Of a DNA stretch of 64,000 nt, positions 7,758-64,000 are shown one piece after another. Position 1 is the stretch's first letter. Each line of letters starts with the position of its first letter. The stretch spans positions 13,622,225-13,686,224 of the forward strand of contig OY720347.1 of the NCBI GenBank assembly GCA_963082975.1. Reading direction: 5' to 3'. The DNA is from Labia minor. Taxonomy: Eukaryota; Arthropoda; Insecta; Dermaptera; Spongiphoridae. The notes beneath the pieces were generated by a model. It saw nothing but the letters and a program-made list of their open reading frames with translations. It made no database searches and was not told the DNA's origin. A program made the translations under genes and the position numbers.

Positions 7758-7890
7758 ACTAGCTCGACAGAGATAGTATTGCGATCATGAAAATTTTTGA
7801 TGTTGAGATTTTGATGTTTTTAAACGTTTTGAAGGTCCCTGAGTCAATTTCACTAAGGTTGAGAAAAATGTCTGTGTGTGTGGGTGGGTA

Positions 7891-7927
<37 letters not shown>

Positions 7928-8392
7928 AGACAAGATTACGCAAAAACGATTTGAGCTAGAATAATGAAATTTGGTATACGGGCATTATTCAAAATTCGTA
8001 GTTTTCTATCAGCCTTTGAGAAATGTAGCTCAACCGGAAGAGGGTCATTACCTACAAAGTTTTGATTTGTTTTCCTCTAAAGTCACCCTAAAAATAAAGA
8101 TATAGGTTTGATAGTTTTTCACATGATTAAAAATTGTATAAAACTGCTATATATAGAATTTCAGCTTCATTGAATCGCCGAAAGTACCAGAATTCATTTT
8201 TTAACTCTGCACATCACGCTCCAAAACGTGACGTGGTGCCATCAACAAAGTGCCAAAAACGCGCTGGTTTAATATATATTGATTAATTTTAATTTATAAT
8301 TTAATTAATTAAATTTAATTTAAATATAATATATGTATTAATTAATTCAATTCAAATATGCGAGATAGTCGAGTGGAGACACTCCAGCTTAT
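7758..8392 (+). mobile_element. Helentron-like (HINE/DINE-1-like) non-autonomous element, family A copy 1
   Basis: The 5' end is ACTAGCTCG, followed by GAGATAGTATTGCGATC. A GT/GTAT microsatellite (7868-7927), a conserved core (GAAATTTGGTATACGGGCAT and GTAGCTCAACCGGAAGAG) and an AT-rich segment follow. The 3' subterminal repeat GCGAGATAGT (8360-8369) is inverted to the family's 5' ACTATCTCGC. Then CGAG, a hairpin TGGAG-ACA-CTCCA (8374-8386) and GCTTATT. There is no coding capacity. The layout of subterminal inverted repeats, an internal microsatellite and a 3' hairpin is that described for Helentron-associated elements. The assignment is inference. Confidence 0.75.
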
Positions 8393-9582
8393 TATATAAT
8401 ATTTTAACTATCAGGGGATTTTTTTATCATCGGCTATATATGTTCAAATATCAACCATACCATATTTTTTTTCTTCTCAGAAATTGAGAAATTTGATATT
8501 CTATTTTTATTTGTAAACGATTCATGCGTGAAAAATAAAAAAAATTGCAATCATTTTATTTTTTTATTTTTTTTTTTTGAAAGAAAAAGAATCTTTATTT
8601 AAATATTAAAGAGCTCCCACTCTTATTATAATACTTGTTATAGAGATACAATGGCATCAATTAAAAGTTGATTAAATTACTGTATTTCATTACAATATTC
8701 AATTTTAATTACATCATTGTACTAAATTAACAAAAAATAAAAAAAAATAATTATATGTTAATTTATATTGATTATGAGGTATAAAATTGAAAATAAAATG
8801 GTATTTGGAAATTGAGGCAATTATAAATTCAATATTTGGAAATGATCATTAATTTTATTCGATTTCTCTTGTTTTTTATGTCTAAAATATATTTTTAATG
8901 AAAATAAATATTTTTATATATAAGATGTATAAATAGTGTTTTTGTAATTATCACATTTTCTATTTCGCAAGAAGTACAATAGATGCAATTTTCTCGATAT
9001 TTTTTTTTAAACTAAACATTAAATTATACATATTGAAAAAATAAAATGAAAAATTTATCTTAAAATAATTTTGATGTCTTTTTTTTAAATTTGAATTTGA
9101 ATAGAGGGAACAGAGTGATGAAAAATAGAAATGATGATAAAAAACATTAAATAATAAAAATGAAAAGTTATTTATTATAATATTAGAAAAAAAAATAATC
9201 TGAGGTAACATTGAAAGTAAGAATTTAACACAAAATCAAAAGGAATCAAACCCAAGATAAATGGAATTTTTCAATATTTTAAATAATCATATAGGTAGGC
9301 ACAAATCGACCAAACTTTACTTTTGGAAAAACAATTATTAATTAAAATAATAATATTAATAATAATAATAATGTTTTATAAACTTGTTTATCTCATATTT
9401 AATTTTTTGTTCAGTTCTATTTTTGTTCTTTATTTTCATTGAAATAAAACAATTAATATTTTATTTAATATTTTCTTTGTTTCACATATTTTTTAAATAC
9501 TCAAATGAAATCTTAGAACTTACTAATCTTGTTTTTTCAAATTATTAATGTGTTTATTTTTTTATGTTACATATTTTTTTTA

Positions 9583-11435: not shown

Positions 11436-11986
11436 ACTATCTCGCCGTTTTGAAGGTTCCTGAATCATTTTCAATAAAGTTGAAAAAAATGTCTCTCTCT
11501 CTGTGTGTGTATATATATATATATATATGTGTGTGTATATATGTAGGCAAGATTACGCAAAAAGGGTATGAGCTAGAATCATGAAATTTGGTACATGGGC
11601 ATTATTCAAAATTCGTAGTTTTCTATTAACTTTTGAGAAATGTAGCTCAAACGAAAGAGGGTCATTACCTACAACGTTTTGATTTTTTTTCCTCTAAAGT
11701 GACCGTAAAAATAAAGATGTAGGTTTGATAGTTTTTCACATGATTAAAAATTGTATAAAACTGCTATATATAGAATTTCAGCTTGATTGAATCTCTGAAA
11801 GTACCCGAATTAATTTTTTAACTATGCAAATCACGCGCCATCAACAAATAGCCAAACATGCGCTGATTTAATAAATATTATTTATTAATTTTAATTTATA
11901 ATTATTTAAATTTAATTTAAATATAATATATGTTATTTAATCCAATTCAAATTTGCGAGATTGTCGAGTGGAGACACTCCAGCTTA
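11436..11986 (+). mobile_element. Helentron-like element, family A copy 2
   Basis: It starts ACTATCTCGCC at 11436. It shares the microsatellite (GTGTGTATATAT), the core (GAAATTTGGTACATGGGCAT, GTAGCTCAAACGAAAGAG) and the 3' end with copy 1. The 3' subterminal repeat is GCGAGATTGT (11955-11964, one change), then CGAG and the same TGGAGACACTCCA hairpin and GCTTATT. The 5' region just after the terminus is shorter than in copy 1. Confidence 0.75.
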
Positions 11987-12520
11987 TTACAAATATTGTA
12001 CCATCATATCATCCAAAGACAAGTATGCCCGCTTTAATTTACATTACCTAGAATATTATTATTAAGGTCTCCCCAGTCGATCATGTTTAAAGACTCGATT
12101 ATTATCAAACTTTATAAACATTATGATAAAGTTTATAGAAATTGAAGGTACTACATATATACATATCCATAAATGAAATATGTCAATTTATCATCATTTT
12201 TCTTTATAATCTCTTTTTTTATTTATTTATTCTCCATCATGTATTTTCTTAAATTGTCTTACCAGCCCCTTTTTCAGTCAAGCTAATCTTTTTTTTCCCT
12301 TTTTGTCAATTTCTTTCTTTTTTTTTATTCTACTTGTTGTTTTATTTATTTCTATTTTCAATAAAAAGCTTGCTGGTAGTTTTTTTCCTCAAAAAATATT
12401 TAAAAATACATTTGTATACAATATATTTAGTCTATTTTTTTCATTCAATTGTTCAGATTTGAACAAAATTATTATTAATTAATAAATTATTAAGATAGGA
12501 TCAACATCAACGGTCTATAT

Positions 12521-14075: not shown

Positions 14076-15972
14076 CACTTAAAGAGACAATAAAAAAAAC
14101 AAATACAATATTTCAATAAAAATACAAATCTACTTATGCTCTGTTAGTTGAAAAATTATTTTTTAGAAAATCTCTCTCGTTCTTTGATTATTTGATGTTT
14201 CATTAGTTTTTGTTAAACAAGTACTTGCGGGTTGAATCTTGTGAATTTTTTTAAATAAATACTTCTATTTCTATTATCAAAATCATAAATTTATAAGATT
14301 TCTCAATTTTTTTAAAAGTTTATATATTTTAAAAATGTGGTTTTCAACTTCCGAGATCCTAAAAGGGGTTGATTGATAGTATGACCTCTTTTCCGCTCCC
14401 CAAAATAAAATTCTAATATCTCTTAATAAATTATTCAATCATTTCTTTTCGATAGTTCAAGTGAAATAAAATGAATTTAAAAATCAATTTTTATTAGAAA
14501 ATTTAATGTTTTTGAAATGTAAAAACAATTTATTTAACTTTGGTATTAAAGTTCATAAGTTTGTAATCCCACACTCACTTTGTTCCTTGGAAACAAAACA
14601 AACTTTAGAATATTTGTTTAAGAAAGTGCGACTTGAATTGTTAATTCAATACAGAAAGAGAGAATATCATAACAACGCCAACAACAAATAATAAATTTCA
14701 ATTTTAGTAAATATCTAAAGTCAGAATTTTGTAGGATTTGTTTTGGTAAAAATTATCTTCCAACTGTCTTTATAGGAAGGTACTATTTCTAGTTTTATTA
14801 ATAAAATGCCTTCTTAAAATAATTAAATATTATTTATTTATTAAAAAAAAAAATTATAATTGAATTTATATATTTCCAAATGAAAAATATCAAAACTAAA
14901 ATAAAATAACACATTAAAGGCGGGAGTCGTAATACTACGATTAAAAATATTTCTTGTAGTTTTAAGAGTTTAAATAAACTTTTTTAAACCTAATTTTTTT
15001 ATGATTACAAAAAGAAACAAAAACAAGGCGGGCGGGCACCGCGTTCGTCAAGATCATCCCCCTTTTATGTGATATTTTACATATCTTATCTTATTTTATT
15101 ATACTAGCAAAACTAAATGCGCCCAACGTTTTTCGTTGAATATGAAGCAATTCATCCATAAACTTTGTCAGGCTTATAGAAAAATTATTTTATTTGTTTT
15201 TATTATAAATTTATAAATTGTAATGAAATTTAATTAAAACGTGTGTTTTTTGTAATTAGAAAAAAATAATTAATTGAAATATGTTTATTTATTTTCAGAG
15301 TATCTCCCTTCAACTTATACTCCAATGTATATAATAACTAAATAGTAAATACCAAACAAACAAATAAATAAATTTTAATTTCTACCGAATAAATATTCAA
15401 TTGTAAAAATTGAAATATATATAATTTAAATTATTATTAATATTTATCTAAAATTTATTATCAGTAAATATGACAATATCAGTAAATGTGTTGACTTTTA
15501 AATTTCTCTAGAAAGAATAAATAAAATGTATTGTGTATTCTAGGTAAATGAATAAATATCGTATAGTATTTTTTTTTTATTTTTGATTATATTGATTAAA
15601 TTTTGTTTTATTTTATTAGTAAAATACAAATATATTCAAAAAAAAATTTTTTATTTACTCCTTAGATAACGCTCACTATTTTTTCATTATATTAAAATAT
15701 AATTTAGGTTATAGCTTAATGAACAAATAGATAAGTTGTTATATGAACAATAGTTAATTAAGAAGTTTATATACTATAAATATTAGTACTAACCGATCAA
15801 TCACCGATCAGACATGGGTAAAGTTAATATGTATATTTTATTTATCTACACTTCTACATTTATTTTCTGTTTAAATATATTGTAATAAAACAACTTTTAA
15901 AAAGATTTCAAGCTTTTAGTGAAATTAATTAAATAGTGTATCGGTGCATTTGTCATATCTCATTTGTTAAAA

Positions 15973-16428
15973 ATAAGCTGGAGTGTCTCCATTCGATTAT
16001 CTCGCAATTTGAATTGGATTAAATAACAATAATATATTATATTTAAATTAAATTTAATTAATTATAAATTATCAATTAAAATTAATAAATAATATTTATT
16101 AAACCAGCCCATGTTTGGCTCTTTGTTGATGGCACCACGTCACGTGTTGGCGCGTGATTTGCAGCGATTCGATCAAGCTGAAATTCTATATATAGCAGTT
16201 TTATACAATTTTTAATTATGTGAAAACTATCAAACATATATCTTTATTTTTACGGTCACTTTAGAGGAAAAAAAATCAAAACGTTGTAGGTAATGACCCT
16301 CTTCCGGTTGAGCTACATTTTTCAAAAGTTGATAGAAAACTACTTATTTTGAATAATACCCATGTACCAAATTTCAAACCTTTTTTACGTAATCTTCTCT
16401 ATATACATACACACATAGGCGAGATAGT
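15973..16428 (-). mobile_element. Helentron-like element, family A copy 3
   Basis: Reverse orientation: AATAAGCTGGAGTGTCTCCA at the left is the 3' end with its hairpin. ATTATCTCGC (15996-16005) is the 3' subterminal repeat. GCGAGATAGT (16419-16428) is the 5' end. The segment between the microsatellite and the 5' end is missing, so the 5' repeat directly abuts the GT-rich tract. The core matches copies 1 and 2. Confidence 0.73.
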
Positions 16429-20744: not shown

Positions 20745-20952
20745 CGCTAGGCCGACAGTGAGCCGCGAGCTGCTCTTGAATGAACAACACGGAGAATTAT
20801 ATAAACTTTAAAAAATTAATTTCTGCGGTTATTGTTGACATATAAATAAAATTTATAGCCTATGTTACTCTAGGGGTATATAAGAATATTGTGATGTAAT
20901 TTCATAGAAATCGGTTCAGCCAATTCAGAGTCTATAAAATAGTAATTTTCCG

Positions 20953-20984
<32 letters not shown>

Positions 20985-21100
20985 TGAAAAATTCTAAAGT
21001 CACTTTTGGATTCTAGAGGTCATGAAACGCGAAGATATGCAAAAATTTTTAAATTCTGAGCAATGTGCAGACAAAAACCTTTTTTTATATATATAGATTA
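20745..21100 (+). repeat. unclassified repeat with GACA tract and TATA tail
   Basis: It contains GAGCCGCGAGCTGCTC, CATAGAAATCGGTTCAGCCA, a perfect (GACA)n tract at about 20955-20984, GGTCATGAAACGCGAAGATA and a 3' TATATATATAGATTATAG. The ATCGGTTCAGCC block followed by a GACA tract is common in arthropod interspersed repeats. A weaker reversed copy is at about 29370-29500. Confidence 0.55.
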
Positions 21101-22815
21101 TAGTTTTTTATACTATTTTATTATCGAGGCAGAAGGGCATTTATTAATAAACCTTAGGTATAAACTTATATACTATATATATATATAATGTTGAAGAATT
21201 TTTAATATATTAAATCTCTTAATTTAATTTCATCTCCTTAATCTTAATATTAAATCTACAAACTCCTTTAAGATAATTGATTTTCCAATAAATCCTGAAG
21301 AACATTCCTGAACGCCTTCAATAACTTTTAATCCCTTAAATTCTTAATTAAATTTTTGTTTACATTTTATATTAATTTAATTTATTAATAATAATATTAA
21401 TTGTTTTATTAGAAAATAATTCTCTATATATATATATATAGAAAGAGAAAATACTTGAATATTAAATTTATTTATTTTTACATTTTTATTTCAATTTTTT
21501 TTATTTTTATCTTAATAATTTTATGTTTTCTTACACATTTTTTTAAATATTTAATTTCCTTTTATAAATCTAACAAAAATTAATTAATTTTCTTCATTTT
21601 TTTAAAAAATAATGTAAAACGTTCATAAATAAAACAAAATTACTTTTTTTTAGTAATATACGAAATACATTAAAATTTCTTCGTTAAAAGCATTCAAAGA
21701 GTTACACTTTTCATATCCCTAAAATCCCATAAATCAACTAATCATATTTGAACTTTTTAATATCCCATTTTCTCATTTCATAAAATCATTTTAGATAATA
21801 ATACAAATAATAAAAAATATAGTTTTTTTTATCATTTGAATTGAAACAAAATTTTTCTTAAAAGACTTGGAATTCTATTTAAACAAATTCCATACTAATT
21901 AGTGAGAACATTCCTACCTTAAAGGGGATCTATTGCATTAGGAAGGGTAGTTAATCTATTTCCAAGAATACTCCAATTAGCTAAATTCATATGATATTAA
22001 GATAAATTGCATACATTAACCATCCTAAAATGTTGTACTTGTAAGCTCAAAAAGTTCTGAAAAGTAAAATCGATTTTTTAAGCAAACTCTTACTTTGAAA
22101 CGTTAATAAAAATAAAAATCTTTAATATTTAACCTTTAATATTCCTTTATTCTTTTTATTTACATAGTATATTTTAAGAATTATATTTATTAATATTAAC
22201 ATAATTAAATTATTTATTCATTTGGAATAGACTTAGAAAATAGACAGGTTTTATTTATAAAGTCAATAAAAATGTCCTTAAAATAAAAAAAATGGTATAA
22301 AGAGAGAGGAATGTTTAATTTATTATTTATTTTATACTATATTTATACCGAATCTGTTTTAATTCATTTGATTAAATCAAATCAAATAGAATGTATGTTG
22401 AAAATTATTAGTATCTTTCCTATAAATATATTTCTACTAATTATTGTTTCTTTTTGAATTCTAAATTAATTATAAGTTTATTTATCTAGAAAATCATATA
22501 ATATCAATAATAATAATTAATAAAGAAAATAAAAGTTTGATATAAATATAAATAAATAACTAGTAAATAAATAGTCAAAAACATAAACACAAAAAAGAAT
22601 TGCAGTAAATATATTTTTTTTTTATTTTTATTTTTTATACCATAAAGTAATAAAATATTACGTTTTATAGACGAAATATTTCTAGAGTATCCAAAAAGTT
22701 TACCTTAATACGCTCCTTTATTTATTTATTTTTTAATATTTAATAAAAACAAATTCTATTTATATAAGATAATCAAATTTTCTCTTATGAGATTTTATGT
22801 TTACTATGTTCATGG

Positions 22816-26679: not shown

Positions 26680-27555
26680 TAGTGATTCTCAACCTGAGCG
26701 ATCGACATCTTAAAGGGGGCGATTATTTCACTATGCGATTTTGGGGGGCGAAATCATTTTCAACTCTAAATAAGTTGACCTGTGGCCAGGTCCGAACCGA
26801 CCGACGGTTTGAAATAAATTAATTTCCAGCTACAGAAACAATTTCAAATAATTTTTATATATCTATTAATGTAATAAAAAACAGATATGAATATAACATA
26901 AATATTTTTAATTTTATTTTATTTATAATATATATTTAAGACCAGGCTGTGACGTCATATAATTTTAAATCAAGAAAAAACTAATAAATATGATTTTTCT
27001 CGAGGATAAAACCAAAACAAAGTACATGATTCGTGGTGATATGTAAAAAATCTCCTCATGTGAAATTTGGTGTGAAAATAACCCTTCCCTTCCTATCGTC
27101 GATCACTAATACTACCACTTCCGGTTTCCGGATTTGCACCAAAAGTTGATCAATTCATCCCACTGATGCATTAAGTAAATATACCAAATTTCATCAAAAT
27201 CGGTTGAGCCGTTCAGGCTGTACATATCTATACGGACGGACGGACGGACAGATATCATGCTAAAAATACTTTTTTCTGTTAAGAAAATGCATGATTCGTG
27301 GAGATATGTAAAAATCTCCACATGTGAAATTTGGTGAGAAAACAATACCTCCCTTACTATCGTCGGTCGGTAAAAAAGGTAAGATGATTTTGCGATCAGG
27401 CTTTTTAAACATTTCAGCTTTTTTTCAATATGGTTCTAAAAATAAAAAAAAGGTAAGATGATTTTGAATTTTTATCTGTTAAAAATTATAGAGGGGCGAA
27501 TTATGAAGTCGGCCTTACGAAATGGGCGTTTGGTCCAAAAAGGTTGAGAACGCTA
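26680..27555. mobile_element. hAT-like MITE, family D, interrupted by a Helentron-like element
   Basis: The termini are TAGTGATTCTCAACC at 26680 and GGTTGAGAACGCTA ending at 27555. Flanks ATATATAC (26672-26679) and AGATATAC (27556-27563) agree at 7 of 8 positions, as expected for the 8-bp duplication of hAT elements. Inside, blocks such as CATTTTCAACTCTAAATAA and GGTAAGATGATTTTGCGATC recur in the copy at 38429. The interruption is 26774-27373. Confidence 0.8.
26774..27373 (-). mobile_element. Helentron-like element, family C copy 1, full length, nested
   Basis: Read on the minus strand, the 5' end is ACCGACCGACG (plus 27361-27371). The 3' subterminal repeat is CGTCGGTCGG (plus 26797-26806), then TTCG, a perfect hairpin GACCTG-GCCA-CAGGTC (plus 26777-26792) and AACTTAT. 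It has a GACG microsatellite. The uninterrupted MITE at 38429 reads through this point (CTCTAAATAAAAGGTAAGAT in reverse complement), which fixes the edges to within a few bases. Confidence 0.77.
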
Positions 27556-29369
27556 AGATATACATTTAAATATCCTGTGTTTTTTTTAAATATATTCGTA
27601 TACAAAGTAGATAAAATTGTTTCATTTTTTTCGAATGTAATAGTTAATACTTTCGTATTTACTACCTCTTCATTAAATATGTATCTACGAAATGAAGAAA
27701 AAAAAATTAAAATCCTTCTGGATTATTATAAAAACAAAGTTATATACATAAATTTTCACTTAATTTTTTAAATAAAACAGTGAATTAAACAAAAATTATC
27801 CTATATTATTAAACAAATTAAAAATTTTCTTTATATTTATTAATATGAATTAATTAAAATTGTAATATATAAACAGTACAACTTTTTCAAGTAAAATTTG
27901 ACTAACGTGAATGGGTATTATCAAGTTTTCCTTGGCAGATCATTATTAAATTATTGCTAGAGTCATTCGTGCCCACTACGTCATTTATGACCAATTAAAA
28001 GGATTTTAGACTATTTTGTTTTTAAATATTTATTTAGAAATCTCTTGATGAAACTATTTTTTGGAGATGTATTCATAGGGTTGTCTACTGTCCTTTTTTT
28101 TTAAGAAGGACAATCCTTTTTTAATGCCTGGTTACCTTTGTTATTTTTTTAAAATAGGAAAGTACGCCTTTTGTCCTTTTTTCAGATATTGTTCACACAA
28201 AGCTAATTTATTTTATTGTTATATTAATTTAATTCATCTGATTCCATGCTTTACCCTTAATTACTGATTTAGACTATACATATACATTATTTTTACAAAA
28301 AAAAAACAAACAAATAAATATTCTTGTTCATGTGCTTACTTTTGTCACAAGATGGTGTTACTCCGTAATTAGCATAGGGGTATTTTTTCCTCCAATATTA
28401 TTATTACATAAAATGCTTGAATTTTCTACAATTCTTTTTCATTTTCATTGGTTCAAATCTCTTCTCTCAGAAGAACACTCAGAATAATTATAATGTCAAA
28501 AAGTTTCATCTTCTTGACAAAATCTTTCAATCCGGTCCTTTTAATGGTCATAGTTTGATTGCACTTTTTTCCCACACCAATTTGGTTTCTTAGTTGTTCG
28601 CTGAAAATGTGTTTCCTTTGTTGAAACATACACCAAAATATTTATTTATATTTATCGATTACCTCCTGTTCTACCCCACTCCACTTCCAACTTCCTTTGT
28701 TTTTTTTCTCTTTTGTTCTTTTTAAATATCAAAATATTGGTCTTTTTTGTATTTATTTCTTAATATTGATTATAATATGTAAAGTGACGGAAAAAAGAAA
28801 ACTAGTCTAGCGAAGTAGGCACTGCGCCTTTCTTAACAGCAACCTGCAAAGCAATTGTGAAAGAATGTCTATCTATATGCCTGGATGCTTTAATTTTTTT
28901 TTTTGTTATTTTTAATACATAATCATATATTTTTATTGAATTAAGGGGAGATAATAATTATAATAAAATTATTATAAAAGAATAAAATATTATTGTGTAA
29001 TTAATAAGTAAATAATAAATTTCCTATTAATTTATTTTATCAATTGAAAAACCTATAAAAATATCTTATAATAATTTTACAAGATAAATTTAATTAAATA
29101 TGCATTAAATGATTATTAAATCATTTGAAATTTTTATATAGAGATCAAAATAAAAAATACCATAAATAGTATATTTATATGAATTTTATTAATCAAATCG
29201 AGTTGAAATGATCAATTTTTAAAAATCATCTCAGATGCTATAAATTATGTATTATATATCTATTAAATGAAAATACATCATATACATATAGGTAAATAAA
29301 AAGGTTTTTTATCTAAACATTGCTCATAATTTAAAAATGTTTGCATGTCTTCAGGTTTCATTACCTGAA

Positions 29370-29500
29370 ACAAAAGTGATTAGAATTCTTCATTCCTGTC
29401 TGTATTTTTGTCTATTCGGGAAATTGTGACGTTATAAATTCAAAATTGTCTGAACCGATTATAATGAAATTTCATCACAACTTACAATTATATTATATCA
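29370..29500 (-). repeat. remnant of the GACA-tract repeat
   Basis: On the minus strand it reads AATTTCATTATAATCGGTTC, then AGACAATTTTGAATTTATAA and an ACAGACAGG remnant, matching 20870-20990 in order. Confidence 0.45.
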
Positions 29501-29680: not shown

Positions 29681-30176
29681 TAGCTGGGGCTAGGCACAGA
29701 ACCAACCGACGATTTGAAATAAATTAATTTACAAACTATATATATATATATAAAGTATCAAAAAAAAATATTTTTAAAACTTGAAATAAAATATCTAGAT
29801 TATATTATCTTGGTTTTTATTTTTAATTTAATTACTCAATTATTAATTACTACTATATTTTAAGTGAAATATTTTCCGACAATGAATATAAAATTAATAT
29901 TTTGTAACTACTACTTCCAGTCTCTGGTTATACTCCAAAAGTTGATGAATTCATGCTACTGATGCATTAATTAAATATAATAAATTTTAGCAAAATTTGT
30001 TGTGCCATTCAATCTGTACACGTCTATACGTAAACACAGACGGACAGACGGTCAGACATGCTAAAAATACTTTTTTTCTGTTAACAAAATGTATGGATTC
30101 GTGGAGATATGTAAAAATCTCATCATGTAAAATTTGTTGTGAAAACAATACCTTACCTTCCTATCGTCGGTCGTTA
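29681..30176 (-). mobile_element. Helentron-like element, family C copy 2
   Basis: It starts with a decayed hairpin region (TAGCTGGGGCTAGG) and AACCGACGAT near 29702, and ends with ATCGTCGGTCGTT (about 30163-30175). The body holds CAGACGGACAGACGG and GGATTCGTGGAGATATGTAA as in copies 1 and 3. It lacks part of the TGACGTCAT region. Confidence 0.7.
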
Positions 30177-34014: not shown

Positions 34015-34888
34015 ACTTGAATTAATAATGAGCGTTTTTTTCGAAATTTGCGGATTTATTTTCAAATAATGGTTACAAATGTTTTAATCAAAGTATTGTC
34101 CATCGCTGGTCAGTACTTTTCCCCAATTTTCTGGCAATTTTCGGATGCCAGCTCGAAAAACGACTCCTCTTTTGAGGCAATCCAATCATCGACCCATTTT
34201 TTGCATTGTTCTTTTGAAGTGAACTTCTGCTGGGACAGACCATGTGTCATCCACCGGAATAAGTAATAGTCCGAAGGAGCAATGTCTGGAGAATACGGCG
34301 GATGTGGTAAGACTTTGCATTTCAGTGTTTCTAGGTAGGTTTTCACTGATATTGCAACATGTCGTCGAGCGTTGTCATGAAGCAAAATCACTTTGTCGTG
34401 CCTTTCTTCGATATCCGGCCGTTTTTGCTTCAGTGCGCGACTTAACGCATTCCTGAAGCGTTTGGTATTGATCTACATTGAGTAGTGATTCCAATTCTTC
34501 GTCTTCAAACTTTTTGGGTTGACCCGGCCGTTTCTTGTCTTCGAGCTCAAAATCACTACTTTTAAAGCGACCAAACCATCTCCGACACGATTGTTCAAAT
34601 AGACCATACTCGCTATAATCTTCCACTAAAATTCGATGACTCTCGGCCGCACTTTTCATTACTTTAATAATGAAGAGAAGAACTCCCCGCAAAAACACTT
34701 TATCTGGTAAGAAATTGGACATGTTCGAAACAATATTTAGTACTGTTGTTTACATTTCAACCAAATGATACAAGCTGTTCAAGACGACCATAGACTGTAG
34801 GTTTTAGCGGGAAAACATTGCAAACTGGAATATTGAAACATACACTAGTGGCGGCCTCTTGTGCGAAACGCTCATTATTAATTCAAGT
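34015..34888 (-). mobile_element. mariner deletion derivative, one third missing
   Basis: A 23-bp perfect inverted repeat (34015-34037 with 34866-34888, ending AATAATGAGCGTTT) marks the ends. On the minus strand an N-terminal part (MSNFLPDKVFLRGVLL, SCRRWFGRFKSSDFELED, RPGQPKKFEDEELESLL) runs from 34722. It is followed directly by the C-terminal catalytic part (KVILLHDNARRHVAI, PHPPYSPDIAPSDYYLF) to about 34110. The HDN and PSD aspartates are present. The middle, with the first Asp, is deleted and the frame is shifted. Confidence 0.88.
34110..34722 (-). pseudogene. mariner transposase missing its middle, frameshifted
   Basis: The N-terminal frame (34375-34722) ends shortly after TLQECVKSR, then changes to an out-of-frame read-through. 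The C-terminal frame begins with ALKQKRPDIEERHDKVILL upstream of the HDNARRH motif and ends near GEKY. The first catalytic Asp (DEKW motif) is missing. The two helix-turn-helix motifs look largely intact, so a DNA-binding peptide is conceivable. Confidence 0.82.
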
Positions 34889-38320: not shown

Positions 38321-38428
38321 AATATAAGTATATATAATATATATATAGCTAGCTATATTTGCTATTGATATTACTTTAGAAGATCCATTATTAGATGTTC
38401 GGAGACTAAATTATTTGATAGTTTAGAG

Positions 38429-38783
38429 TAGCGTTTCTCAACCTTTTTGGACCAAACGCCTACTTCGTAAGGCCGGCTACATAATTCGCCCTCCTATAAA
38501 TTTTAAAATTGCATGATAATTCCTGGGTAAGGTAGGTACACTTGGTGATACTTAGAGCCATATTGAAAAATCGAGTTTCAGAACTTGATCGCAAAATCAT
38601 CTTACCCTTTTTTTAGGACCATATTGAAAAAAATTGAAAAAAAGTGGAAATATTTAAAAGCCTGATCGCAAAATCATCTTACCTTTTATTTAGAGTTGAA
38701 AATGAGTTCGCCTTCCAAAAATAAGTACCGCCCCCCAAAAGCGTATAGTCAAATAATCGCCCTCTTTAAGATGTCGATCACCT
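38429..38783. mobile_element. hAT-like MITE, family D, uninterrupted copy
   Basis: It starts TAGCGTTTCTCAACCTTTTT and ends GATGTCGATCACCT. Flanks GTTTAGAG (38421-38428) and GTTTAGAT (38784-38791) agree at 7 of 8. It is the reverse complement of the family D element at 26680-27555 without the Helentron-like insert. Its far terminus has lost the TTGAGAATCACT tip seen there. Confidence 0.78.
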
Positions 38784-39637
38784 GTTTAGATTAGATAGTT
38801 TAAAGTAATGTTTAAAGTTAAGAGTTATTTTTAGAGTGCAAAAAATTTATATAGAAAATTCTTTTTAGATAGTTTATTATTGTAATATATGTAATTATAT
38901 TTCTTTTAGATTTATTTATGTTAATTAAGTAAATACGTTGAGATTTACTTTTATTATTATTATTATTAAAATTGTATATAATATATAATAGTAAAGTATA
39001 AATCCATGATTGCCCCAAATAGTATTGGTTCTCGATTATACGAGTATGAAAATTTTAAAGAGATCTTTTCTCTACTGGTTTCTCATTATTCACTTTTTTA
39101 TTTATCTGATAAAATATAATAATGAAAAATGTATTCTCTCAATCCCATAATTAAAATCCTGTTTAATTTTCATTTTCATTCAAAATATAAATAATAATTG
39201 ATTGGCCTGAACAGGCGGATGAGCTTATATTTTCCACTACGAAAGTTTCCTGCTCATACGAAGAACATTCTCATAATTGTATTGTAGAGAATACGACTAG
39301 AAACTCTCTCCGACAACCGACTAACGATTGACATCCTAAAATTTGTTTGTGGTTCAAGTATTCGTTTCAAAACAACCGAGCAGAATATTTTAGCAGAGTA
39401 CTCCGCTCGAAAGGAATTGAATGAAATTTCCTCTTCATTATTGTTACTAATAATATTCACTTTTCTCTCATTTTTTTTTTACTTGGTTTATTTTACTCTC
39501 ATTAATAACAAAATCTGATTTTGAGTTAAATGCATATCGTTAACGTATCTCTATTTCTCTTTGTTCTAAAATTAGCAACTAACTACCTATCTACTAGTAT
39601 ATAGTATATACCTACAAATATAATATATATTATATTG

Positions 39638-47929: not shown

Positions 47930-48240
47930 GTTCATAAAAGACCGAATTTTAGTAATAAAATATTTATTACAATACTTACAATTTTACAAATGCTTGTCCC
48001 CTTCAAAGTACTCCCCGTTGCTTGCTATGCACCGTTCCCAGCTCCACTGTTCAAATGCTCCTTGGAACTCGTTTTGTGTGATGTTGTTTAGCTGTGCCAG
48101 CGATTTCTCTTGAATTTCCGGTACACCTTGAAAACTGCGACCTTTTAAGGTAGATTTTAGTTTTGGCAATAGGAAGAAATTCGCTGGGGCCAGATCTGAA
48201 GAGTATGGAGGATGTGGAAGAACAATTTTTAATCATGTTA
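47930..48240 (-). mobile_element. mariner C-terminal fragment, truncated
   Basis: On the minus strand: KIVLPHPPYSSDLAPANFFL, KLKSTLKGRSFQGVPEIQE and SNGEYFEGDKHL, ending near 47984, followed by an outer end with TCTGTTCATAAAAGACCGAA. The third catalytic Asp (APSD in relatives) is replaced (APAN). The 5' part is gone and a Helentron-like element begins at about 48245. Confidence 0.8.
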
Positions 48241-48244
48241 ACAT

Positions 48245-48611
48245 ATATTATATTTTTATAAATTAAATTATAAATTAAAATTAATACATAATTTTTATTA
48301 AAACTGTGCGTGTTTGGCTATCTATCAAAAATATATCATTATTTTTACAGTCAGTTTAGAGGAAAAAAAGGATAACGTTGTAGGTAATGTTCCTCTTCCA
48401 AAAGATCTACATTACTCAAAAGTTGATAAAATTTTGAATAATGCCCGTGTACCAAATTTCATTATTCTAGCTCAAACCATTTTTGCGTAGTCTTGTCTAC
48501 ATATATATACACACACACAGACATTTTTCTCAATCTTACAAAGTGCAAATGACTCAGGGACCTTCAAAAAAACATCAAAATCACAACATCGAAAATTTCT
48601 GACGAGATAGT
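48245..48611 (-). mobile_element. Helentron-like element, family A copy 4, 3' end missing
   Basis: The 5' end is CGAGATAGT on the plus strand at 48603-48611. It holds the CA microsatellite and the core (GTGTACCAAATTTCATTATT, GTAGGTAATGTTCCTCTTCC). The 3' subterminal repeat and hairpin are absent. The element runs directly into a truncated mariner on its left at about 48240. Confidence 0.7.
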
Positions 48612-52867: not shown

Positions 52868-53125
52868 TTATTAAAACATCTCCTCTTCCGGATGAACTAC
52901 ATTTCTCAAAATTTGATAGAAAACTACCAATTTTGAATAATGTCCGTGTACCAAATTTCATTATTCTATAGTTCAAACATCTTGTCTACATACAAACACA
53001 CACACAAATAGACATTTTTCTCAACCTTAGTGAAAATGACTCAGGGGCCTTTAAAACGTACAAAAACATCAAAATCTCGACATCGAAAATTTTTATGATC
53101 GCAATACCATCTCTGACGTGATAAT
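52868..53125 (-). mobile_element. Helentron-like element, family A copy 5, 5' part only
   Basis: It matches the 5' half of family A in reverse: CTCCTCTTCCGGATGAAC, GTGTACCAAATTTCATTATT, a CA microsatellite, ATTTTTCTCAACCTTAGTGA and ATCGCAATACCATCTCTGAC. The terminal repeat is decayed. It is truncated on the left inside the core. Confidence 0.65.
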
Positions 53126-53889
53126 AAAAACATTGAGATTCGCAGATTTTCAAACTAAAAACAAAAAAATTATTTCTGATCCAGAATCTTTTAGAATTTT
53201 CCAATATCTAAAAATATTAAATTTATTAAAAGACACTTGCAATTTTAATATTAACAAAAAAAAAAAAAAAATTAAAGAATTATGAGAAAACGATTAAAGA
53301 CCATTTGACACGGGGGTTGATTACTAAATGTCTCCTTTAATCGGAAATCCTCCATGGCGTTTTTCCCTTAAGACTTTTAATCAAGATGATTGACATGAAG
53401 AAGGATGAGAGCAGAGAAGAGAAGCGATTTCTTCAACCAGTATACATAAACAAATTAACTCATCCTATGAAGGGCTTAATAATAACAATGATCCCGTTGA
53501 GAAATTCCAACCAAAAGATTAATATAGTCATATTTAGAAAATTAAGTTGAATTTATAAGATTATCGGAGATAATATATCTACTATAAAAGGAAATAAATA
53601 TAACAAAATATTAATATTAGGTTATTATTATTTTTTTTAATTTGTTCTTTGAGCATTTCGCTTTTATTAATATTTAAATAGTATAATTAACCTCCTTCTT
53701 TAGAAAAAAGTTATAAAATATCTACATATATTATTTAGATATCTCTTCCAGTGATGTATTGGTAATATAAGAATTAAGGGAACGCATAGTGGGTGCAAAA
53801 AAAGTCTTATTTTCAGCAAACTATTTTTTTCCATATAAGTTTTAATTTTTTCTTATTCTTACTATACAAAGTATTAATGTACACAAAAT

Positions 53890-55079
53890 AAGCGGGAGTG
53901 TCCTCCCCTAGACTTTCCCGCATATAAATAGGTATAAAGAGTTGTGAATGAATATTTAGAATGTGTAAACTTGGTATTGATAAAGAGCCAGTTCGTATTA
54001 GTTTATTGGTGTCAAATTTGATATTTGGTAACATTTATATATATATATATATATATATAGAATAAAGTGCTACTTCCGGTTAACTGATATTTTAAATGTA
54101 AAAAAAACAGATATGGATATAATATAAATATTTTTAATTTTATTTTATTTATAATATATAAGGGCTGGCTGTGACGTCATGAAGTGCTGTGTGACGTCAT
54201 ATAATTTTAAATTAAGAAAAAACTAATGAAGATGATTTTTCTCGAGGATAAAACCAATACAAAGTGCATAACACGTGGAGATATGTCCTCACGTGAAATT
54301 TGATATGAAAATAACCCTTCACTTCCTCTCTTCGATCGACAATACTAGCACTTCCGGTTTCCGGATTTGCACCAAAAGTTGATCAATTCATCCAACTGAT
54401 GTATTAAGTAAATATACCAAATTTCATCAAAATCCGTTGTGCCGTTCAGGCTGTACACATCTATACGGAAGCACGGACAGACGGACGGACGGACGGACAG
54501 ACATCATGCTAAAAATACTTTTTTCTGTTAAGAAAATGCATGATTCGTGGAGATATGTACCTAAAAATATCCATAGGTGAAATTTGGTGTGAAAACAATA
54601 CCTCCCTTACTATCGTCGGTCGGCAAAAAAGAAACGCTACTTGTATAGGTAAAATGTCACTTCCGCTAGTCAGATCATGATGAAATTTGGTATCTCAATT
54701 TTTTTCATATTTTTAAATCTATATACAAAATATGAAGCAAATATCTCGAAGCAAACTGGTACTTTACTTGAAAGGTAAACGCAACCAGTGTAGGTAAAGT
54801 ACCACTTCCGGTTAACCGATTTAGACGAAATTTTGATAGAAATCTACAAACTGTCAATAATATCGGTGTACCAAATTTCGAAGTTCTAGCTTGATTAGTT
54901 TTTGAGTAAATTTGCTTACAGACATTACATACATACATACATACACACACACAGACATAATTCGAAAAATGGTATTTTCCGACTCAGGGAGGTCTAAAAC
55001 GTCAAGATCTATCGAAATCTCGAAGTCGAAATTTTTGACGATTCCAATACTTCCCTTATACGAAGTATGCGGGAAAGTA
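53890..55079 (-). mobile_element. Helentron-like element, family B, full length, inside a hAT MITE
   Basis: On the minus strand the 5' end is ACTTTCCCGC (plus 55069-55078). The 3' end has GCGGGAAAGT (plus 53912-53921), then CTAG, a GGGAG-GACA-CTCCC hairpin (plus 53894-53907) and GCTTATT. It has a CA/CATA microsatellite and a core with GTGTACCAAATTTC. It interrupts the hAT MITE 53749-55207, whose uninterrupted copy is at 56309-56575, so the insertion edges are visible. A family C element sits inside it. Confidence 0.78.
54095..54627 (-). mobile_element. Helentron-like element, family C copy 3, 3' end missing
   Basis: It carries the family C body: TGTGACGTCAT twice, GAAGATGATTTTTCTCGAGG, ACTTCCGGTTTCCGGATTTG, ATTTCATCAAAATCCGTTGT, a GACG/GACA tract and CATGATTCGTGGAGATATGT. 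It ends at the 5' terminal repeat CGTCGGTCGG on the plus strand (54614-54623). The hairpin end present in copy 1 is not found. It lies within family B. Confidence 0.68.
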
Positions 55080-56308: not shown

Positions 56309-56575
56309 CAGTGATGTATTGGCAAAATAAGAAGTAAGAGAACGCATAGTGGGAGTAAAAAAAGTCTTATTTTCAGCAAACTATTTTTTTCCATATAAGT
56401 TTTTATTTTTCTTATTCTTACTATACAAAATATTTACAACACAAAAAAAAAAAGAAATTCTAACAGTAGATTTAAGTGGGAGTTGTCAGGATATGAAAAA
56501 GTACTGGAACGCGCCGTTCTGAAAAAAAGATAAGGGAACGTCGTTCCCCTGCGTTCCCCTCCCAATACATCACTG
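56309..56575. mobile_element. hAT-type MITE, family H copy 2, intact, perfect duplication
   Basis: CAGTGATGTATTGG and CCAATACATCACTG are perfect 14-bp termini. GGTATATT flanks both sides exactly (56301-56308 and 56576-56583). The interior has AACGCATAGTGGGAG and AACGTCGTTCCCCTGCG. It is 267 bp, noncoding, and probably young. Confidence 0.93.
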
Positions 56576-58831: not shown

Positions 58832-59762
58832 TAGGTTGGGGAAAAAGAAATCCATTATTTTTACGTGAACTTCAAGACTTTATTTAACATGTTTTGCATT
58901 GTCCGATTTAGGTCAAATATGCACCATTTTGTTCTATAATTTGTTGCCATTTTAATGGTAGCTTCATTATGCCTCTCTCATAAAAGTCTTGGTCCTTATT
59001 AGCAAAAAACTCCAGCAATTGATTTTCACACTCTTCCCTTGATGCCAATTTCTTATCACTAAAACACGCTTTGACCACGATCGCTTTCGCATAATGTTGT
59101 CGTATGTGACCCATTTCTCATCCCCAGTCACCATCCGTTTAAGAAATGGGTTGATTTCATTACGTTTGGCCAAGGCTTCGCAGATGGAAATTCGATCCAT
59201 CATGTTTTTTGGTGTTAATTGGTGTGGCACCCAAACATCAAGCTTTTTTTTAAACCCAGCTTTGTGCAAATGGTTTAAAACTGTTTTTTGGTCGATCTTT
59301 AACTCCTGGGCGATGCTACGACTACTAACATGCCGGTCCACTTCGATGATTTCAGTGACTTTGTCGACATTTTCGACGACGGGCCTGCCTGTGCGAGGGG
59401 CATCCTTAACGTCAAAAATACCCGAACGGAATAGACGAAACCAAAATTGCGCGTAATTAGCTGTTACAGTATCGGGACCATAAACACTATTCACATTTTC
59501 AGCCGCCTGACTTGCATTTTCGCCCTTATCAAAGAAAAACTGTAAAATGTACCGAATTTTCTCTTTGTTGACTTCCATCTTTAACGCCGTGTAACTCAGA
59601 ACTGAATGGACAAAACAAAAAACTGCAAACGAATTCTTTTAGTGCGAACTGTTACCTTGACAACGAGCATAAATTTGAAATTGTTTGATTGATAATTTAC
59701 GAGATATCGATCACTACAGCCATCTACCGAAAAAATAATGGATTTCTTTTTCCCCAACCTAA
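58832..59762 (-). mobile_element. mariner (cecropia-like) with large internal deletion
   Basis: The termini AGGTTGGGGAAAAAGAAATC and its inverse match over about 30 bp, with TA-rich flanks. On the minus strand the transposase starts at 59578 (MEVNKEKIRYILQFFFDKG) and reads cleanly through both helix-turn-helix domains and the first catalytic Asp (VTGDEKWVTYDN) to RKRSWSKR. It then jumps to SDKKLASREECENQLLEF and ends GAYLT at about 58914. The second and third catalytic Asp are deleted. Of the mariners here it is the best preserved. Confidence 0.92.
58914..59578 (-). pseudogene. mariner transposase lacking its catalytic centre
   Basis: About 170 N-terminal residues are uninterrupted: the DNA-binding domain, the linker with TPKNMMDRISICEAL and the DEKW region. 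The C-terminal 55-60 residues follow in another frame. The long intact DNA-binding half could still make a peptide that binds mariner ends; that is only a possibility. Confidence 0.88.
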
Positions 59763-63721: not shown

Positions 63722-64000
63722 TAGTAAGGGGAAGTATTGCGATCGTGCAAAAATTCGATTTTGAGTTTTCAACGGAAATACACGTTTTGAGGTCCCCTGA
63801 GTCCAACAAACATGCGGGACGCAAAATGGTCTGTGTGTGTGTGTGTATGTGATCACTCTAGCTCAGAAACGACAAACTGTCCGAAACTGAAACTCCGAAT
63901 TTAGAATAGGTATGTTACAGCAACTTTTTCGTTAAAATCAGTTGACCGGAAGTGCCACTTTACATCATTGATTTTACACTTTTTTGCGGTTTTCTCCAAA
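63722..64000 (+). mobile_element. Helentron-like element, 5' part, runs out of the window
   Basis: It contains GGGGAAGTATTGCGATCGTG, TTTTGAGGTCCCCTGAGTCC, a GT microsatellite and ATCACTCTAGCTCAGAAACG, and GACCGGAAGTGCCACTTTAC. The order matches the 5' half of families A and B, closer to B. A clear 5' terminal repeat is not visible. Confidence 0.6.

Follow-up and report, generated by a model that had tools for sequence, protein, structure and literature searches.

The elements closest to those described here are DINE-1/INE-1 of Drosophila, for which the available part of Yang and Barbash (2008; PMC2374699) tabulates repeats that differ between species, reports stems that differ between species in a way suggesting compensatory mutations, and considers that the hairpin may be a terminator. 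Differing repeats with compensating stems are thus already known, and, given that 2008 description, the coupling of the two ends proposed in a preliminary description of the present DNA is an independent rediscovery in another animal. For Helentrons and their associated HINEs, the portion of Thomas et al. (2014; PMC4067079) at hand gives RGSPH as the Helentron signature and RGLPH as the Helitron signature. In one canonical Helitron, according to the accessible text on Helraiser (PMC4778049), the hairpin acts as a terminator whose loss raises read-through.

The stretch analyzed here (the window) comes from a 604-Mb assembly of 71 contigs, in which it occupies contig C5:13622225-13686224; it is 64 kb long, AT-rich and free of N. 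It holds copies of three families, A, B and C, all without coding capacity, and we are highly confident that these are non-autonomous Helentron-associated elements (HINEs, DINE-1-like). The preliminary description had made the same assignment, and it is supported: the elements have subterminal repeats, a 3′ hairpin, a microsatellite block and, in A and B, a partial inverted repeat on the 5′ side; they insert between T residues and lack coding capacity; and the same genome has Rep/helicase loci, two of them with A's 3′ terminus as their end.

As far as the available text of PMC2374699 goes, the three families share with DINE-1/INE-1 species-varying subterminal inverted repeats, T|T insertion, the lack of an open reading frame, a partial inverted repeat beside the 5′ repeat, a block-A microsatellite, and a 3′ hairpin a few nucleotides after the 3′ repeat. 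They differ in repeat length (10-13 nt here, 13 in DINE-1), hairpin length (5-6 bp versus 7-11) and microsatellite (TG/TATG in A versus GTCY, although C has GTCC), and, unlike DINE-1, B is a chimera of two families. With HINEs and Helentrons, as presented in the part of PMC4067079 at hand, they share T-rich insertion with a variable number of terminal T residues, subterminal repeats, a 3′ palindrome, and the occurrence of non-autonomous families beside coding elements; the 3′ repeat of mite HINEs lies about 38-60 nt from the end versus 23-27 here. Helraiser is alike in that its 3′ hairpin serves as transposition terminator and read-through captures flanking DNA, but it has canonical Helitron ends and is a reconstructed bat element (PMC4778049, same portion).

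The end plan of the window families

The window holds five A copies, including two fragments, together with the following features of families A, B and C:

7758..8393, + strand: A1, family A copy 1, full length; 5′ repeat damaged (ACTAgCTCGaC)
7770..7777, + strand: A1 5′ partial inverted repeat arm GAGATAGT, which pairs with the 5′ subterminal repeat
8360..8393, + strand: A1 3′ end, consisting of GCGAGATAGT (8360-8369), CGAG, the hairpin TGGAG/ACA/CTCCA (8374-8386) and GCTTATT
11436..11988, + strand: A2, family A copy 2; 5′ inverted-repeat arm deleted
15972..16428, − strand: A3, family A copy 3; 5′ side partly deleted
48239..48611, − strand: A4, family A copy 4; 3′ end lost
52882..53125, − strand: A5, family A copy 5; 5′ part only, both 5′ hairpin arms kept
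63725..63860, + strand: fragment (block A and its microsatellite) of another A/B relative
53888..55078, − strand: B element, with A-related ends and C-derived body
55066-55078 (5′ subterminal repeat), 53912-53924 (its 3′ copy), 53894-53907 (hairpin) and 53888-53893 (GCTTAT), − strand: parts of B
55049..55055, − strand: GGGAAGT, the 5′ partial inverted repeat arm of B, which lacks one base for a complete match
54095..54623, − strand: C-derived segment within B, with C-type 5′ end TTTTTTgCCGACCGACG and no C 3′ end
26770..27371, − strand: C1, family C element; 5′ ACCGACCGACG, 3′ CGTCGGTCGG-TTCG-GACCTG/GCCA/CAGGTC-AACTTAT
29684..30175, − strand: C2, family C copy 2; old and decayed, hairpin broken

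The common layout first proposed (an inverted copy of the 5′ terminus, 4 nt, a 5-6 bp hairpin, then CTTAT) was recovered by a scan that knew nothing of the families. A hit had to combine a 10-nt repeat matched at 9/10 positions, a gap of 3-5 nt, a perfect stem no shorter than 5 bp, CTTAT, and an inverted copy of the repeat lying 150-2500 nt upstream. The scan returned four distinct ends in the window, those of A2, A3, B and C1, and none besides; 60 first-order Markov shuffles of the window gave a mean of 0.017 and a maximum of 1 (one match in total). Reading of the ends agrees for these four. The layout does not hold for the copy at 7758: A1 escaped the scan owing to one substitution plus one insertion in its 5′ repeat, a repeat that is intact in the sampled genome copies of A (the best genome relatives of A1 are about 90% identical across 635 nt). 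When CTTAT was dropped and a 10/10 repeat with a stem of at least 6 bp was required instead, the scan picked up C1 together with a single unrelated palindromic pair (4161/5737), and the shuffles averaged 0.067. That pair belongs to another repeat, in two copies of which a palindromic CTCACGTGAG stands next to a hairpin of 6 bp.

The 5′ repeat matches its inverted 3′ copy at 9/10 positions in A2 and in A3, 13/13 in B and 11/11 in C1, and in all three families the 3′ copy is internal by 23-27 nt and followed by the hairpin. Folding gives the end hairpins modest support against shuffles, with predicted z-scores at the 3′ ends of −1.4 (A1), −1.7 (A2), −2.3 (A3), −3.0 (B) and −1.6 (C1), and at the 5′ ends of −1.75 (A1) and −2.15 (B). 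In the best predicted fold of the B 3′ end, the repeat pairs with a hairpin arm and the hairpin itself does not form.

A further feature, absent from the preliminary description, is a potential hairpin at the 5′ end of A, ACTATCTC-GCCA-GAGATAGT, with all 8/8 pairs kept in 23/30 A loci. Its arm adds to the two repeat copies, so that the repeat word occurs three times in A and nearly so in B. A limited literature search, within the text available to it, found no prior statement of this three-fold use or of an amplified chimera with A ends and a C body. In C, whose block-A microsatellite is GTCC, inspection revealed no 5′ partial inverted repeat arm.

The three families had been described as different in sequence, which is too simple: A and B are sister lineages, and B holds a C-derived segment of 529 nt that is 85% identical to C. 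The outer 5′ part and the 3′ plan of B are common with A, and the block-A core score is 64 versus at most 36 in 300 base shuffles. Block-A likeness to C1 is weak, the scores of A1, A2 and B being reached by 1, 8 and 18 of 300 base shuffles, whereas C1 and D1 are alike, their score being reached by 0/300. B is also a family in its own right, given the near-full-length copies elsewhere in the genome: at least 23 others match 1191-1193 of 1193 nt at 94-98% identity (40 scored of 839 candidates). The ten best-scoring copies after the window's own all have both ends (10/10), TTTTT|ACTTTCCCGCATA and GCTTATTT. To judge from the copies' sequences, B looks like a recent burst.

Comparison of A with B also bears on how the ends change. 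As first claimed, the repeat changes at both ends together, since both A-B substitutions in the 10-bp repeat are present at both ends. The accompanying claim that the hairpin arms compensate stands for the outermost pair between A and B (T-A to G-C), but not for the other pairs, and the C hairpin is not comparable with the A and B hairpins in this respect.

Several other repeats accompany these families. In C1 the 5′ 90 nt recur farther inside the element as a decayed duplicate (27016-27104 and 27281-27369), traces of which are seen in B's C segment. The repeat pair 20889-21109 (−) and 29270-29480 (+), with a GTCT microsatellite and a C-like core, is probably another DINE-1-like family. Mariner-type transposase remains, a sign of an animal and probably insect source, lie at 58970-59638 (−) and 34110-34469 (−), with Pfam matches to PF17906 (HTH_48), PF01498 (below cut-off) and PF13358 (DDE_3); the longest closed frame among those listed for the window (223 aa) is mariner-like, as, presumably, is the frame following A4, which has no Pfam match. 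Short scattered frames between 42539 and 62740 (+) resemble exons of what we take to be a SCYL2-like gene (the three tested gave no Pfam match); if so, some of the elements would lie in its introns.

Ends and insertion sites across the genome

Searched at two or fewer mismatches, the genome holds 23,574 A, 2,706 B and 21,608 C 3′ ends, and the reversed controls 0. We cut out 30 A and 30 C loci from 40 scored of 8728 (A) and 3159 (C) candidates. Both samples include the window copy; three of the A loci (L011, L015 and L022) belong to one tandem triplication, and two of the C loci (L060 and L061) have one flank in common. The A, B and C samples consist of best-scoring copies and are thus biased toward intact ends. 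Within that limit the ends agree among the genome copies of each family (30 A, 30 C and 10 B loci): the 5′ and 3′ ends are each present in 30/30 A loci, and in 27/30 and 29/30 C loci, respectively. CTTAT as a fixed ending, as first proposed, largely holds for C (AACTTAT in 26/29) but not for A, whose loci end in CTAAT in 26/30 cases, CTTAT in 3/30 and CTTTT in 1/30.

Swapped 3′ ends were nearly absent (0 cases of the A repeat joined to the B hairpin and 1 of the reverse combination), although these were searched as exact matches only and are therefore not on an equal footing with the two-mismatch counts. The changes noticed within family copies (for example, L017 and L030) affect one end, by inspection rather than systematic count. 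Some A copies stand head to tail with a few T-rich bases between them (L007 and L009), and contig C6:12634384-12636615 carries the tandem A triplication with a spacer. Outside this genome, pattern searches of viral contigs, in a collection without eukaryote genomes, gave 0 and 0 relatives; in a genome-contig collection without eukaryotes the pattern occurred in two bacterial contigs, which we took as chance.

The insertion sites agree with the class assignment. The 5′ flank ends in TT in 30/30 A and 27/27 C loci, the 3′ flank starts with T in 29/30 and 29/29, and repeats from flank to flank consist of T only in 29/30 and 25/26. Insertion is thus between T residues with no other target change, the exact number of T residues being ambiguous, and no constant duplication beyond T was seen in the sampled loci. 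One coding copy appears to be inserted into the T run of a B copy. Two paralogous empty sites are found in the window:

56309..56574, − strand: copy, lacking B, of the inverted-repeat MITE that B occupies (paralogous empty site)
38420..38790, + strand: copy, lacking C, of the MITE-like repeat that C1 occupies (paralogous empty site)

The MITE at 56309-56574 bears its own 8-bp duplication, AATATACC (read by eye); B is flanked by 5 + 4 T residues and the empty copy has 11. The empty site of C1 has CCTTTTATTTAG, in which TTAT is common to C1's own end. From this single site the AT of C's CTTAT could have been taken for host sequence, a reading ruled out by the 26/29 C loci with AACTTAT: as this precedes differing flanks, CTTAT is part of C and the C1 site reflects microhomology.

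Rep/helicase loci and a candidate partner for A

A Helitron_like_N profile search of the genome gave 104 matches from 126 candidates, and both Helitron- and Helentron-type proteins are present. Within contig C5:46739897-46792979, such matches recur at spacings of about 9.8 and 5.7 kb, as though a decayed element were arrayed in tandem. We read four ten-kb Rep stretches of three groups: H1 (L083 and L085), H3 and K. H1 has an open 1652-aa frame encoding a canonical-type Rep/helicase with an equal PF14214 score at seven places; its two copies are 99.7% alike, and H1 was probably active recently. H1 and H3 carry RGLPH, and we rejected both as partners of A, B or C on that signature, the ends of H1 also being different.

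The K locus has Rep, PIF1 and DUF6570 matches and the RGSPH signature, a likeness to Helentrons; as in Helitron2, it appears to have asymmetrical terminal inverted repeats and has a Rep/helicase frame without an endonuclease match (both after the part of PMC4067079 at hand). Its 5′ start is a T run followed by ACCACGTTTTT, with an inverted copy seemingly about 40 nt before the 3′ boundary (by eye), a boundary that rests on one other, interrupted copy. Although K is of Helentron/Helitron2 type, we rejected it as partner, its repeat ACCACGTTTTT not being that of A, B or C.

Downstream 3-kb stretches were then read at six further Rep loci (L093, L094 and L096-L099). The A 3′ end is present at two of the six, L093 (contig C1:47868109) and L098 (contig C1:44698381); no A, B or C end occurs within 3 kb downstream of L094, L096, L097 or L099, whose true ends may lie farther away. 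The last 249 nt up to A's end are 99.2% identical between the two loci, which diverge beyond. Their Rep domains score 88.5 and 86.6 bits against PF14214, and in both the tail resembles a C48 (Ulp1) protease (E 0.0015 and 0.0053, below the Pfam cut-off), a point in which they differ from Helentrons as described in the accessible part of PMC4067079. L098 also matches UvrD_C_2, a helicase C-terminus (above cut-off), and Exo_endo_phos_2 weakly (E 3.9e-4, below cut-off), the latter resembling the endonuclease that follows the helicase in Helentrons (same part of that paper).

Upstream of contig C1:47868109, two stretches of A body, one 95% identical (A nt about 116-268) and the other 92% (A nt about 374-542), lie in the right order and orientation, and the 5′ stretch contains a high-copy repeat. 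The junction after A nt 542 recurs at contig C60:24378-25006, the only one of 40 scored places to run more than 4 nt past it (the 40 excluded the contig C1 locus itself), and the post-junction sequence is also found, in a second arrangement, just before an A copy at contig C4:39029182. In a third relative of the 3′ region, at contig C1:7258177 (91%), the match stops where A's shared end starts, so this locus lacks the A terminus or is truncated.

By itself, the A end of L093 might have been a deletion copy of A inserted there, but L098 has the same boundary, so the A end is the 3′ boundary of L093. It may still derive from such a copy: GTTACTAT, which precedes A's end in both coding loci, resembles an A 5′ end. 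An autonomous partner for A is likely, though not proven. The search for a Rep/helicase element with matching ends, suggested in the preliminary description, found A's 3′ terminus at two coding loci, whereas for B and C no autonomous partner was found among the Rep loci read. None of the three outcomes that the preliminary description named as refuting was seen: the ends agree among the sampled loci, no constant duplication goes beyond T, and there are coding loci with A's 3′ terminus.

Mechanism and alternative explanations

If the class assignment is right, a Helentron Rep/helicase made elsewhere in the genome would nick at the 5′ boundary, which is rich in T; there, in A and B, the repeat could fold into a hairpin with the neighboring inverted arm. 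The helicase would then peel one strand off, the 3′ subterminal copy, the hairpin and CTTAT/CTAAT would mark termination, and the strand or a circle would enter between T residues, with no constant duplication of any other target base. Each family would keep its own repeat at both ends because both are read in one transposition. We infer that nicking, termination and end reading are all carried out by the Rep protein.

Inverted repeats, small size and high copy number would also suit TIR-type cut-and-paste MITEs, for which the TT on both sides could be a 2-bp duplication, and the available part of PMC2374699 discussed this reading for DINE-1. We consider it very unlikely here: the repeat near the 3′ end is internal and followed by a hairpin in each family, the boundary T count varies and the empty sites need no duplication, and the coding loci with A's 3′ end have Rep, helicase and endonuclease matches. 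Mobilization of A, B and C by canonical Helitrons (5′ TC, 3′ CTRR, A|T insertion) appears extremely improbable. The genome does contain open H1-type Rep/helicases, and the H1 3′ end also has a hairpin, but A, B and C lack TC/CTRR ends and insert between T residues, and the signature of H1 and H3 and the ends of H1 point elsewhere.

Within the Helentron reading, the cause of the coupled ends is less certain. We lean toward recognition of both ends by one protein. The possible, though less probable, alternative is that the coupled change reflects separate descent of whole elements rather than selection by a recognizing protein; the apparent burst of B fits this, and descent alone would be expected to leave swapped 3′ ends nearly absent. 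Against it, both A-B repeat substitutions are mirrored at the two ends whereas the within-family changes noticed are one-ended, and such mirroring calls for a reason. As originally suggested, a transposase with family-specific end recognition may supply one, although the few swapped ends would be equally expected under separate descent.

More speculatively, the 5′ arm may act as a strand-structure switch with two mutually exclusive partners, the neighboring arm or the 3′ copy, an idea we regard as rather unlikely. The copies of the repeat word show matched differences between A and B, and the neighboring arm of B lacks one base. Were the switch real, the origin hairpin would serve nicking and the end-to-end stem termination or circle closure, and each family's sequence would be its own password; B, which has an internal C-type 5′ end and moves as a unit, would then do so without products running from the C start to the B end.

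To our knowledge, which end sequences the Helentron Rep protein reads has not been tested so far. For such a test the genome analyzed here is useful material: its Helentron-type 3′ ends number in the tens of thousands, two DINE-1-like lineages that differ in their end codes reside side by side, one family is chimeric, and there is a locus that is a candidate partner.
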